From assembly GCF_014204975.1 (NCBI RefSeq), contig NZ_JACHMM010000001.1, positions 3,100,001 to 3,164,000 on the forward strand: DNA of 64,000 nt, given 5' to 3'. The stretch is from Jiangella mangrovi (lineage in GTDB: Bacteria; Actinomycetota; Actinomycetes; Jiangellales; Jiangellaceae). Below are positions 58,612-63,084 of the stretch, piece after piece (the first letter of the stretch is position 1; the number at the start of each line of letters is the position of its first letter). The notes below the pieces were generated by a model, which did no database searches, had not been told where the DNA came from, and worked only from the letters and a program-made list of their open reading frames with translations. The translations under genes were made by a program, and so were the position numbers.

Positions 58612-58666
58612 TCTGCGCTTCCTTCTCAGCTACGCGACGTCGGTCCGATCCCCGTGGAGTGATCAG

Positions 58667-60661
58667 ATGAGGCTGTCTCGACGACTTTCCGCCCCCGCCG
58701 CACTGGCAGTCGCCTCTGCCGTCGTCGGGGCCGCGCTCACCCTCACCCTCGAGCCCGCCGGGTCGGTGACCGCCGATCCGCCTCCGCCCTTCGGTGAGGC
58801 AACGGCTGCCGCCTCTGCCGAGCCGGTCGACGTCGCCATTCCGAACGCCGGCTTCGAGGAGGTCGACGGCGACGGCTGGGCGGTCGGGTGGCTACTGGAC
58901 CCCGCGCGGGCCCAGACGGCCGCCGTCGTCGATGGTGATGCCCACGGCGGAGAGCGCAGCCTCGAGGTGGTCGACCCCACGGGAGGCGGCATCGCGATCT
59001 GGTCCAGCCCGGTCGAGTCCGTCCGGGGCGGCGAGTACGAGGCGACGGCCTGGATGCGGACGACGGCGGGTGTCTCGGCCTGGCTCTACCTGGAGTTCTA
59101 CGACGCGAACGGCCGCCGGGTCAGCGAGACGCACGTGGCGCCCGCGGCGTCGGCGACGTGGCAGCAGGTCACCATCGCGGGCACCGCGCCTCCGGCCGCG
59201 ACGTCGATCAAACTGCTCGTCTACGGCTCCACCAGCACGGCCGGCACGACCTACGTCGACGATGTGGGGCTGCGGCTGCTGAATCCCGAGCCGCCGTACG
59301 ACCCCGAGATCGGCCAGCGGACGCAGCTCTTCCACGACCTGGACCGGGTCGACACCATGACGCAGGTCGGCCGCGTCGTCCATGAGGCCGCGACCAGCGA
59401 CGAGCCGATCCTCCGCCCGGACCGGCCGTGGGAGGCCAACAACGTCTACCTCTACGGCAGCGTGCTCTTCGACGAGGACGAGCAGCTCTACAAGATGTGG
59501 TACCACTCGTACAACTGGGACCTGGGCGAGTACCTGAACATGTACGCCACGTCCCGCGACGGGCGCACCTGGGACAAGCCCGAGCTCGGCGTCTTCGAGT
59601 TCGACGGCTCGACGGCGAACAACATCGTCCTCGGCGACGGCATCCACAGCCCGACGGCGCTGAAGGACCCGTTCGAGGACGACCCGGCCCGCCGCTACAA
59701 GATGATGGCGATGGACTACGACCAGGGCTACGTGGTTTATTTCTCCCCCGACGGCATCCACTGGACCGCCTGCGGCTGCAACCCCGTCAGCACCGGTGCC
59801 GACGTCGCCAACGTCACCCAGAACCCCGAGACCGGGCAGTTCGTCGTCACGTGGAAGCAGCCGGACCTGCGGCCGGTCCCGGGCATCCGCTACGCCTTCC
59901 TGTCCACCAGCGACGACTTCGAGACGTGGAGCGCGCCGGAGCTGGTGCTCGCGGCGGACGAGCGCGACAACGCCGCCGCGACGGCGGGCGGGCACACCAA
60001 CGCGCAGATCTACGGCTTCCCGGTGGTGCCGTACGAGGGCGGCTGGGTCGGGTTCCCGTGGATCTACCAGCCAGGCGGCGGCACCCCCGGCATGGCCGGC
60101 TCCGGCCCCGTCGACGTGCAACTGGCGTTCAGCGACGATCTGCGCACCTGGAACCGCGACGACCGCCGCACCGTGATCCCGCGCGGCGTCCCCGGCTCGT
60201 GGGACGCCGGCATGATCTACACCGCCAGCTCGGTCGTGCGTGCCGGGCGGGAGCTACGGCTCTACTACTCCGGCTGGGACGGGTTCCACGACGGCTCGCC
60301 CGGACGGGGCGCCTCCATCGGCCTCGCCACCTGGCGGGTCGACGGCTTCGCCTCACTCGCCAACGGCGGCGACCTCCCCGGTGTCGTCACCACCCGGCCG
60401 CTGGTGTTCGACGGGCGCGAGCTGAGCGTGAACGCCGACCTGGCACCCGGCGGCACCCTGCAGGTCGAGATCCTCGACGCCGACGGCGAGCCGATCCCCG
60501 GCTTCACCCTGGCGGAGAGCCGCAAGGTCATGGGCGACCGCACCGACCACCGGATCCGCTGGGCCGGCGCCCACGACCTCAGCGCCCTGGCCGGGACACC
60601 CATCCGGCTGCGCTTCCACCTCGACGACGGGGACCTGTACTCGTACCGCTTCCACGACTGA
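58667..60661 (+). CDS. Secreted five-blade propeller glycosidase-like protein (GH32/GH43/GH117 superfamily)
   Basis: A 664-residue exported protein. Signal peptide about 1-38. A CBM4/9-like domain (about 50-205; [20 protein letters not shown]) is followed by a propeller (about 215-560) with [58 protein letters not shown] and a [10 protein letters not shown] segment. An end domain follows. GH32/GH68 and GH43-like proteins have such DEDE and KDP elements, but I cannot fix the family or activity. ATG 58667 with GGAG eight bases before is preferred over the TTG at 58595. Confidence 0.72.
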
Positions 60662-60762
60662 GGCAGCGCCCATGGCGGGTGTCGCTGACGTCTGAGTGGT
60701 CCGAGGCCCGCTATCGTCGGGGGCTTCCATCGCGACGATTTCGATGTGTTCACGAGGTGCGG

Positions 60763-61824
60763 GTGACGGCGGTACTGACGGCGGGCGTCGTGGGTCTGCT
60801 GGTCTCGATCTTCGGAACTCGAGCGGCCATCTGGGGCCTCGTCCGGCGCGGGTTCGGCCAGCCGATCCGCGACGAGCTGTCGACGAGCCATCAGGTGAAG
60901 CGGGGCACGCCCACCATGGGCGGGGCGGTGATCATCGTGGCCGCGCTGGCCGGCTACGCGATGGCCCACCTGGTCCGCGGTACCGAGCCGACCGCCTCGG
61001 CGATGCTCGTTCTCGGCCTGACGGCCGGGCTCGGTCTGGTCGGCTTCCTCGACGACTACATCAAGATCTTCAAGCAGCGGAGCCTGGGGCTGCGCAGCCG
61101 GGCGAAGATGGCCGGGCAGGTGGTCGTGGCGCTCGCGTTCGCGCTCCTCGCCATCCGGTTCGAGGACGACGGGGGCTTGACCCCGGCCTCACAGGCCGTG
61201 TCGTTCCTGCGCGACACCCCGGTCGTCCTGCCGGCCGCGCTGTTCGTGGTGTGGGCGCTGCTGATCATCTCGGGGACGTCGAACGCGGTGAACCTGACCG
61301 ACGGTCTGGACGGCCTCGCCACCGGCGCGTCGGTCATGGTGTTCGGCGCCTACACGCTGATCGGGATCTGGCAGTTCAACCAGAACTGCCGCACCGCTCC
61401 GGGACCGGCCTGCTACGACGTGCGCGACCCGCTGGATCTCGCAGTGGTGGCGGCCGCCCTGGCCGGCGCGTGCATCGGGTTCCTGTGGTGGAACGCGCAT
61501 CCCGCCAGGATCATCATGGGCGACACCGGAGCGCTCGCGCTCGGCGGAGCGATGGCCGGCCTGGCCATCACCACCCGCACCGAGCTCCTCCTCGTCGTCC
61601 TCGGCGGACTGTTCGCCATCATCACCGTGTCCGTGGTACTGCAGGTCGGCTACTTCAAGCTGACCGGCGGCCGGCGCCTGTTCCGCATGACGCCGCTCCA
61701 CCACCACTTCGAGCTCCTGGGCTGGAGCGAGGTCACCATCGTGATCCGCTTCTGGATCATCGCCGGCGGTTGCGTCGCCGTCGGGCTCAGCATCTTCTAC
61801 GCCCAGTGGGTCGCCTCGGGCTGA
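60763..61824 (+). CDS. mraY: Phospho-N-acetylmuramoyl-pentapeptide transferase, stand-alone copy
   Basis: A 353-residue membrane enzyme with about ten transmembrane segments. It moves phospho-MurNAc-pentapeptide to undecaprenyl phosphate to form lipid [16 protein letters not shown] (Asp97, Asp98), [13 protein letters not shown] (Asp180), [13 protein letters not shown] and the [13 protein letters not shown] loop are all conserved. GTG 60763 gives the usual start; GTG 60757 is possible. In bacteria mraY usually lies in the dcw cluster between murF and murD. Here no cell-wall gene is near, so this is probably an extra copy. Confidence 0.92.
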
Positions 61825-61914
61825 TCGGTCGGCCGGGCGCGTGTCAGGAGGGAGTTCTCCCCGCTATAGCGAGGAAAAGTCCCACCCGACGCCACCAACG
61901 GCCGATTTCACCCA

Positions 61915-63084
61915 CTAGAAGCTGACGGTGCCCTTGAGCAGCTGTCTTGCCATGACCATGCGCTGGATCTGGTTGGTGCCCTCGTAGATCTGGGTGATCT
62001 TCGCGTCGCGCATCATGCGCTCGACGGGGTAGTCGCGGGTGTAGCCGTAGCCGCCGAAGAGCTGCACCGCGTCCGTCGTCACCTGCATGGCGACGTCGGA
62101 GGCGAAGCATTTTGCCGCCGCGCCCAGGAACCCGAGCGAAGACTCGTCACGTTCCGAGGCCGCCGCGGCGCGGTAGACCATCTGACGCGCCGCCTCGGTC
62201 TTCATGGCCATGTCGGCGAGCATGAACTGGACGCCCTGGAAGTCGGCGATGGGGCGGCCGAACTGCTGGCGCTCCTGGACGTAGGCCGTAGCGGCCGCGA
62301 CCGCGCCGGCGGCGATGCCGACGGCCTGGGCGCCGATGGTGACGCGGGTGTGGTCGAGGGTGCGCAGCGCGATCTTCAGGCCCTGCCCGAGGTCGCCCAC
62401 CACGCGGTCGGAAGGGATCCAGCAGCGATCGAACAGCAGCTCGCGCGTGGGGGAGCCCTTGATGCCGAGCTTGCGCTCGGGCGCGCCGAACGAGAATCCC
62501 TCGTCCGTCGACTCGACGACGAAGGCGGTGATGCCGCGTGATCCCGCGGAGGGGTCGGTGACCGCCATGACGGTGTAGTACTGCGAGACCCCGGCGTTGG
62601 TGATCCAGGACTTCTGGCCCGACAGCACCCAGCCGTCGCCGTCGCGGACGGCGCGGGTGGTCATGGATGCGGTGTCGGAGCCGGCCTCGCGCTCGGACAG
62701 GCCGTAGGAGAACATCGCCTGCCCGGCCGCCACCGGCGGCAGGTACTTCTGCAGCACCGACGGCGACGCGGCCAGCAGCAGCGGCATGGTGCCCAGCTTG
62801 TTGACGGCCGGGATGAGCGACGACGAGGCGCAGGCGCGGGCGATCTCTTCGATGACGATGCAGGTGGCCAGGGCGTCGGCGCCGGCGCCGCCGTACTCCT
62901 CGGGGATGTGCGGCGCGTGGAAGTCGGCCGAGCGCAGGGCGTCGTAGGAAGCCTGCGGGAACGTGCCGGTCTCGTCGGCCTCGGCCGCGTGCGGCGCCAC
63001 CTTGTCGGTGCAGAGCTCGCGCACCGCGGAGCGGATCGCCTCGTGCTCGTCGCTGAGCCGGTACAGGTCGAAGTCGGCATCCAT
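61915..63084 (-). CDS. Acyl-CoA dehydrogenase (FadE25-like)
   Basis: A 389-residue flavoprotein that oxidises acyl-Co[19 protein letters not shown] (FAD site), [50 protein letters not shown] and the catalytic Glu in [14 protein letters not shown] are present. In mycobacteria and streptomycetes its close relatives lie next to purE and purK. Here it is 54 kb away from purE. The chain length of the substrate is not evident; short branched acyl-CoA is likely. It is divergent from ugd. Confidence 0.92.

Follow-up and report, generated by a model that had tools for sequence, protein, structure and literature searches.

Why does this genome hold a complete mraY gene that stands apart from the dcw cluster? 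An earlier note, made from the letters of the DNA, had described the gene as an orphan with all the motifs of MraY and with no murF, murD or other dcw gene near it. It had suggested two roles, i.e. that of a second, target-modified MraY protecting against nucleoside antibiotics such as the capuramycin or muraymycin types, or that of an enzyme of another lipid-linked sugar pathway.

A complete second mraY outside the dcw cluster

The window analysed here is a stretch of 64 kb (3,100,001-3,164,000) of a genome that consists of one contig of 7,162,500 bases. One of its open frames encodes a complete MraY of 353 aa (Table 1), which is matched by both Pfam models Glycos_transf_4 and MraY_sig1 and passes the curated equivalog model TIGR00445 (300.3 bits, cut-off 192.05); an identity by chance is excluded. 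In the alignment (A. aeolicus numbering) the protein keeps K70, D117, D118, N190, D193, D196, D265 and H324-H326, and the HHH motif and the NLTDGLDG loop are intact. The score and the kept catalytic residues bear out the statement that all MraY motifs are present. The WecA model TIGR02380 gave no match to the protein at E 0.001.

The isolation of the gene was confirmed as well. A tblastn search of the window (E 1e-3) with eight proteins from this genome's own dcw cluster (FtsZ, MurC, MurG, MurF, MurE, FtsI, MraW and MraZ) gave no match, and the MurD and FtsW frames of that cluster likewise had none, i.e. 0 of the 10 tested dcw genes lie in the window. Nine of these 10 gene names rest on scores above curated cut-offs, while FtsI matches penicillin-binding-protein models below the cut-off. 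Three Glycos_transf_4 genes are present in the genome, namely the orphan, a WecA-like gene and the second mraY that had been proposed for a search of the dcw cluster; the latter adjoins murF there, and its product and that of the orphan share 73% identity over 350 residues. The orphan is, therefore, not the sole mraY of a genome whose dcw cluster lacks one, and it stands beside an intact housekeeping copy.

Table 1. Positions of the orphan mraY, its flanking features and its relatives in the same genome (window positions unless a locus is given).
Feature	Position	Strand	Remarks
Upstream neighbour, 665-aa protein	58664..60661	+	No Pfam match
GAGGCCCGCTATCGTC	60703..60718	+	Promoter-like (putative); TATCGT as possible -10 box
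Possible ribosome-binding site GAGGTG	60754..60759	+	By eye
Orphan mraY (second phospho-MurNAc-pentapeptide transferase)	60763..61824	+	353 aa, GTG start, TGA stop
Codon 251, ATC (Ile)	61513..61515	+	A. aeolicus F262 position; TTC (Phe) in the dcw copy
Short interspersed repeat core	61843..61891	+	Soon after the orphan stop codon; many genome copies
Acyl-CoA dehydrogenase	61915..63084	-	Convergent neighbour; Pfam
dcw mraY	L004:11977-13038 = 4,651,977-4,653,038	-	Adjoins murF; murD also beside
WecA-like gene	L005:7164-8282		Glycos_transf_4 match

Loss of the uracil cap from the drug pocket

Pocket residues were assigned by alignment to the A. aeolicus MraY sequence of PDB 4j72, in which chain positions are, by our own count, six above the published numbers. 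Residues K46, T51, N177, D180, G181 and L182 of the orphan correspond to K70, T75, N190, D193, G194 and L195, and D183, G253, D254, Q294 and H313-H315 to D196, G264, D265, Q305 and H324-H326; all of them are kept. The uracil cap F262 is absent, its place being taken by Ile at residue 251.

According to the accessible part of PMC6606608, F262 caps uracil by pi-stacking in the case of carbacaprazamycin and likewise interacts with capuramycin, muraymycin D2 and tunicamycin, and the uridine of mureidomycin is bound similarly to that of the other uridine-type MraY inhibitors. The same text names T75 as an inhibitor contact in the uridine-adjacent pocket and A321 as a TM9b contact of muraymycin D2 and mureidomycin, and considers it likely that the pocket residues around the inhibitor uracil also serve the uracil of the substrate (PMC6606608). 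The change at F262, at the probable binding place of the substrate uracil, may thus cost some substrate affinity.

Other differences from the dcw copy were dropped as marks of the orphan. Ala in place of Ser at 257 occurs in 8 of the 30 non-dcw copies described below, and the accessible part of PMC6606608 gives no inhibitor contact there; His313, in place of Gln, is common in other dcw copies; and ELS (one ELT), in place of DGP at 38-40, occurs in the dcw copies of six same-genus relatives that have no orphan. The dcw MraYs of these six (L014, L017, L018, L019, L023 and L025) have the loop RDELS or RDELT, not RDDGP, near residues 36-40, possibly through gene conversion with an orphan since lost. 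An AlphaFold2 model of the orphan (mean pLDDT 67 from 13 sequences, with stretches 32-50 and 308-325 below 50) was too weak around the pocket and was also dropped as evidence.

Distribution in the family

The orphan was found in 6 of 21 family relatives, three of the same genus (G006, G007 and G008) and three of another genus (G019, G020 and G021), so that its presence is patchy (7 of 22 family genomes, own included). The family orphans are 85-90% identical to the one in the window, while the dcw copies of the same six genomes are only 72-74% identical to it. All seven have Ile at residue 251, and six of the seven have Thr at the A321 position.

Gene calls around the family orphans differ, except for the pair G006/G007, which share a common locus. 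The acyl-CoA dehydrogenase that follows the orphan in the window sits away from it in the other carriers of the same genus (G006, G007 and G008), and in G003 and G011, which hold the best matches of the upstream 665-aa gene, this gene and that of the acyl-CoA dehydrogenase are on separate contigs.

Synonymous divergence was compared between the two kinds of copy. For the 12 cross-genus orphan pairs mean dS was 0.29 (0.17-0.42), compared with 0.58 (0.45-0.67) when the dcw copies of these genomes were paired likewise, and the orphan value was lower in 12 of 12. Within the window's genus (six pairs) the two were alike (orphan 0.26, dcw 0.23), and within the other genus the orphan was lower in all three pairs (0.26-0.34 versus 0.45-0.75). 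The cross-genus pattern fits a transfer of the orphan between genera. Because dN/dS was 0.17-0.39 over the 21 family orphan pairs, the protein is under purifying selection.

Recurrence of pocket changes in other lineages

MraY genes of other lineages were collected by a similarity search of named genomes, from which the best 80 of 584 loci were kept, ranked by likeness to the Ile-bearing query, and whose search peptides exclude residue 251; a separate search covered 60 genomes. In the set gathered before the residue was used, which includes these best 80 of 584 loci, Ile251 was present in 14 of 18 non-dcw copies compared with 1 of 105 dcw copies. By non-dcw we mean the lack of any match to the eight dcw proteins, mostly within about 8 kb per side and less at contig ends (L084, L184 and L186).

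A DNA pattern for the Ile form ([V/I/M]-Ile-Met-Gly-Asp, which other replacements would escape) occurred in 18 of 393 genomes of the class. MraY matches numbered two in 23 of these genomes, one in 363 and none in seven, and the pattern was found in 14 of the 23 two-match genomes versus 4 of the 363 one-match genomes (Fisher p 1.5e-16, relatedness ignored). Outside the family the figures were 7 of 16 versus 4 of 349 (Fisher p 2e-8, relatedness again ignored), the 16 including the apparently contig-broken genes of G042 (two partial matches) and G170 as well as a fragment in G330 and a 40%-identical copy in G133. When distinct genes were pooled and counted once, including those of genomes picked by the Ile pattern, Ile251 was present in 21 of 30 non-dcw and 5 of 133 dcw copies; this count skips MraY pieces shorter than 340 aa (L228, L235 and L249) and leaves unclassified the G133 copy, which is on a 4.6-kb contig. 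The Ile-262 pattern was also seen in G446 and G438, of the same phylum and another class (3 of 60 searched including the own genome, DNA pattern only).

Another pocket change, T75Q, is carried by 4 of the 9 Phe-bearing non-dcw copies (two from Brachybacterium, and those of G232 and G359), which form one clade, and by 0 of 133 dcw copies (110 Thr, 22 Ser, 1 Val). Five of the 30 non-dcw copies (L106, L109, L237, L240 and L244) have neither F262I nor T75Q, and three of these five have Ile at the L191 position. In the class sample, 12 second copies from outside the family are intact, and 3 of these have neither change.

Among the 128 columns that are at least 90% conserved in dcw copies, non-dcw copies deviate most often at column 251 (70%), then at column 90 (53%) and at columns 310 (A321) and 309 (47% each). 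The uracil-pocket residue L195 is altered in 8 of the 30 non-dcw copies, and no departure was seen at K70, D117, D118, N190, D193, D196, D265, Q305 or H325. This is the pattern of a drug-gripping residue altered and the chemistry left alone. It can be added that L195 is replaced by Ala in the Kribbella/Nocardioides-type orphans L062, L065, L068, L084, L190, L191 and L192, with NLTDGADGLL in the rows inspected.

These counts bear on the idea that the orphan is a redundant duplicate drifting under relaxed constraint, with F262I as a neutral change. The step from TTC to ATC takes a single base, and non-dcw copies leave other conserved columns too, such as column 90. However, Ile is the only replacement of F262 in the set, also among the 14 copies that predate use of the Ile pattern, column 251 tops all the conserved columns while K70, N190, D193, D196, D265, Q305 and H325 never change, and dN/dS is well below 1. 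We regard drift as an improbable explanation.

The five Ile-bearing dcw copies (G118, G199, G209 and G348 of the class sample, and Nocardioides alpinus) are each the sole MraY match of their genome; G118, G199 and G348 are small-genome actinobacteria (1.3-1.5 Mb). As these five copies show, an MraY with Ile at this position can be the only one found in its genome, and this favours the view that the orphan is active; for the same reason, Ile alone is no proof of resistance.

Independent origins of the Ile copies

Three trees were built, one of 101 of 151 rows (71 of 121 Phe-bearing dcw copies; column 251 omitted), a second larger one of 108 of 164 rows (78 of 133 dcw copies), and one of 48 rows with 19 of the 21 Ile orphans, four T75Q copies and 25 dcw copies, which excludes the five non-dcw copies with neither change and the five Ile-bearing dcw copies. 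The 21 Ile orphans need five changes on the 101-row tree, and the 19 need five on the 48-row tree, where they form one group in 0 of 200 bootstrap trees and where a topology that unites them in one clade is rejected (AU p 4.2e-65). They fall into groups from the window's family, Mycobacteriaceae, family f40, Arthrobacter and Nocardioides/Kribbella, each of which except f40 lies close to dcw copies of the same lineage or of one related to it. It should be noted that the f40 group entered solely via the Ile pattern, which also enlarged the Mycobacteriaceae and Nocardioides groups. A sign test on independent pairs gave a mean of 4.4 for and 0.1 against (median p 0.125) in a first run and of 4.8 for and 0.0 against (median p 0.0625) in a later one; it leans toward an association and, with too few pairs, does not fall below 0.05. 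Taken on the tree topologies, the second, non-dcw MraYs of other actinobacteria are seen to have made the Phe-to-Ile change separately.

In the 48-row tree the Kribbella orphans nest inside Nocardioides-type orphans and apart from Kribbella's own dcw copies. This placement is a second sign of horizontal transfer, and the orphan mraY looks to be a horizontally transferred gene.

With the trees at hand, a further explanation can be weighed, namely that the orphan is a condition- or stage-specific isozyme, i.e. a normal lipid I synthase that is retained for reasons of dosage, development or stress and tolerates Ile262 as a side effect. The intact catalytic residues and the dN/dS values would suit such an enzyme, as would the sole dcw MraYs that tolerate Ile and the five non-dcw copies with neither pocket change. 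An accessory, transferred gene, in contrast, better fits the patchy presence, the differing location and the low dS between genera, and the convergence of separate second copies on one pocket residue also speaks against a mere side effect. On balance, this explanation seems unlikely.

Flanking elements and neighbours

The sequence GCTATCGT occurs upstream of all seven family orphans, though most of their flanks differ, and the stretch around it, which lies 53 to 194 bases ahead of the start codon in the seven genomes, resembles a promoter. The 16-base pattern GAGGCCCGCTATCGTC has a single exact copy in the genome; a search for a regulon in the genome found no second copy with fewer than two mismatches (nine matches versus five for the reversed control). 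A leader peptide or riboswitch was considered for the upstream region and dropped, and no model was built; the leader of about 39 to 180 nt has many indels, though GCTATCGT is kept. Downstream of the gene, an 85-base repeat query that contains CGCTATAGCG gave 48 matches in the genome (G000), self included. The repeat is partly palindromic, because some matches lie on both strands at one place, and it probably does not belong to the orphan gene.

Selected neighbours in the window and in 12 other orphan contexts, 34 genes in all (four in the window, 20 in the six other family contexts and 10 in other lineages), were scanned against Pfam. They comprise regulators, a histidine kinase, oxidoreductases, transporters, small enzymes and unknowns, and no biosynthetic set was found among them. 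An all-against-all comparison of gene calls in 25 non-dcw contexts revealed no conserved neighbourhood, no family being present in more than two contexts save for the pair G006/G007; the families that recur more often near non-dcw copies are widespread types (response regulators, kinases and ABC ATPases) at varying distance.

Self-resistance of an antibiotic producer by a modified copy of the target is a known principle. As a special case of target bypass, the orphan might be the self-resistance gene of a producer of a nucleoside antibiotic, with the cluster elsewhere in the genome. The pocket evidence is the same as for target bypass in general, no biosynthetic set was seen among the scanned neighbours, and we regard this special case as improbable.

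Even less probable, in our opinion, is a changed substrate, with the orphan working on a different nucleotide-sugar or forming a different lipid-linked intermediate, which takes in the second role named in the earlier note. The changed residue does lie within the nucleotide pocket, and a family-2 glycosyltransferase (L121:11050-12381) adjoins the orphan in one of the seven family contexts, that of G019. Yet it is the only glycosyltransferase among the 34 neighbours scanned, and the protein is an MraY equivalog at 300 bits with no WecA match and with the HHH motif and NLTDGLDG loop kept, so that this suggestion finds little support.

Some individual contexts can be recorded. A histidine kinase gene directly follows the orphan mraY in two unrelated contexts (L084:2955-4670 and L118:10755-12785), and a YCII-like small protein is encoded near the orphans of L062 and L192. 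In one Brachybacterium genome, a HelD/HelR-like gene for RNA polymerase recycling (L081:5818-8004; a 728-aa frame with 437 bits to a HelR model, below its cut-off of 1100) has its stop codon overlapped by the T75Q orphan; no counterpart of this gene is present at the other three T75Q loci. About 5.6 kb separate a weaker HelD/HelR-like relative (36% identity; L055:14523-16715) from the Nocardioides Soil797 orphan, directly upstream of which is a gene for a fusaric-acid-resistance-type exporter (L055:6779-7849). HelR proteins are reported, in the accessible part of PMC10719064, to give protection from rifampicin in actinobacteria. The HelD/HelR-like and exporter neighbours are anecdotes.

Proposed function and comparison with known systems

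The best explanation of these data, to which we assign a probability of roughly 0.6, is that of a mobile isozyme for target bypass, i.e. a second, stand-alone MraY that is functional and would make lipid I in the presence of uridine-type inhibitors. Normal work would be done by the dcw MraY. With the dcw enzyme blocked by a uridine-type inhibitor (of the tunicamycin, muraymycin, caprazamycin/liposidomycin, capuramycin or mureidomycin type, or an as yet undescribed relative), the orphan would continue the synthesis of lipid I, because its uracil pocket, without the aromatic F262 cap, would hold the inhibitor less tightly, while its unchanged catalytic residues would still handle Mg2+, UDP-MurNAc-pentapeptide and undecaprenyl phosphate. 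From the sequence of the orphan we infer that it is catalytically active, binds the inhibitor less tightly, protects the cell and is transcribed from a promoter of its own.

The first suggestion of the earlier note, that of a second, target-modified MraY, has thus gained ground in that a dcw copy exists, F262 is changed to Ile with the catalytic residues kept, and separately derived non-dcw copies are alike. The change does not single out one antibiotic, F262 being a contact of the inhibitor classes with complexes described in the accessible part of PMC6606608.

With slightly less than even confidence, the proposal can be extended. Stand-alone MraYs that are insensitive to the drugs, recognisable by a missing F262 cap or by T75Q, may be widespread in actinobacteria, where they would have arisen repeatedly and spread by horizontal transfer; uridine-type inhibitors would thus be a common selective force, and natural target-site resistance to them would already exist. 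No published second MraY serving as a resistance copy, and no version without the F262 cap, was among the literature matches listed, a set with little of the subscription literature in it, so that such a description may exist elsewhere.

MraY is being pursued as the target of a new class of antibacterials. In the accessible part of a paper on the optimisation of such inhibitors, MIC rose only 2-fold over 30 days' exposure to the lead analogue (PMC11178787). The recurring F262 change in second copies suggests a natural, mobile resistance gene, and a family of second MraYs changed at a residue shared by the inhibitors would show a possible source of target resistance, and would also supply a set of enzymes for testing the pocket and a bait for unknown producers. 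Such enzymes would allow a direct test of whether F262 can be spared in catalysis while being required for inhibition.

Compared with the dcw-encoded MraY (TIGR00445), the orphan is alike in family model, length, catalytic Asp residues, HHH motif and, at 73% identity, much of its sequence; it differs by its place outside the dcw cluster, its own promoter-like motif, its F262I change and its differing locations, and six of the seven family orphans also by A321T. The resistant second copy of a drug target is a well-known kind of gene, examples being the mupirocin-resistant IleS2, the novobiocin-resistant GyrB and the platensimycin-insensitive FabF. As in these cases, the housekeeping copy is kept and the drug pocket of the second copy is changed; in the present case, however, MraY is the target, the neighbours scanned include no biosynthetic cluster, and resistance is predicted from sequence. 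A precedent for the effect of a single pocket change is the laboratory mutant D193N of A. aeolicus MraY, in which, according to the accessible part of PMC6606608, affinity for muraymycin D2 is nearly abolished; this mutant was engineered, and it concerns another residue than F262I, one that is kept in all 30 non-dcw copies. Finally, protection from tunicamycin is ascribed, in the accessible part of PMC6105854, to the tunIJ exporter and the tunM methyltransferase. These genes resemble the orphan in its proposed role, that of a guard against a nucleoside directed at MraY, but they encode an ABC transporter and a putative methyltransferase, whereas the orphan encodes a second MraY.
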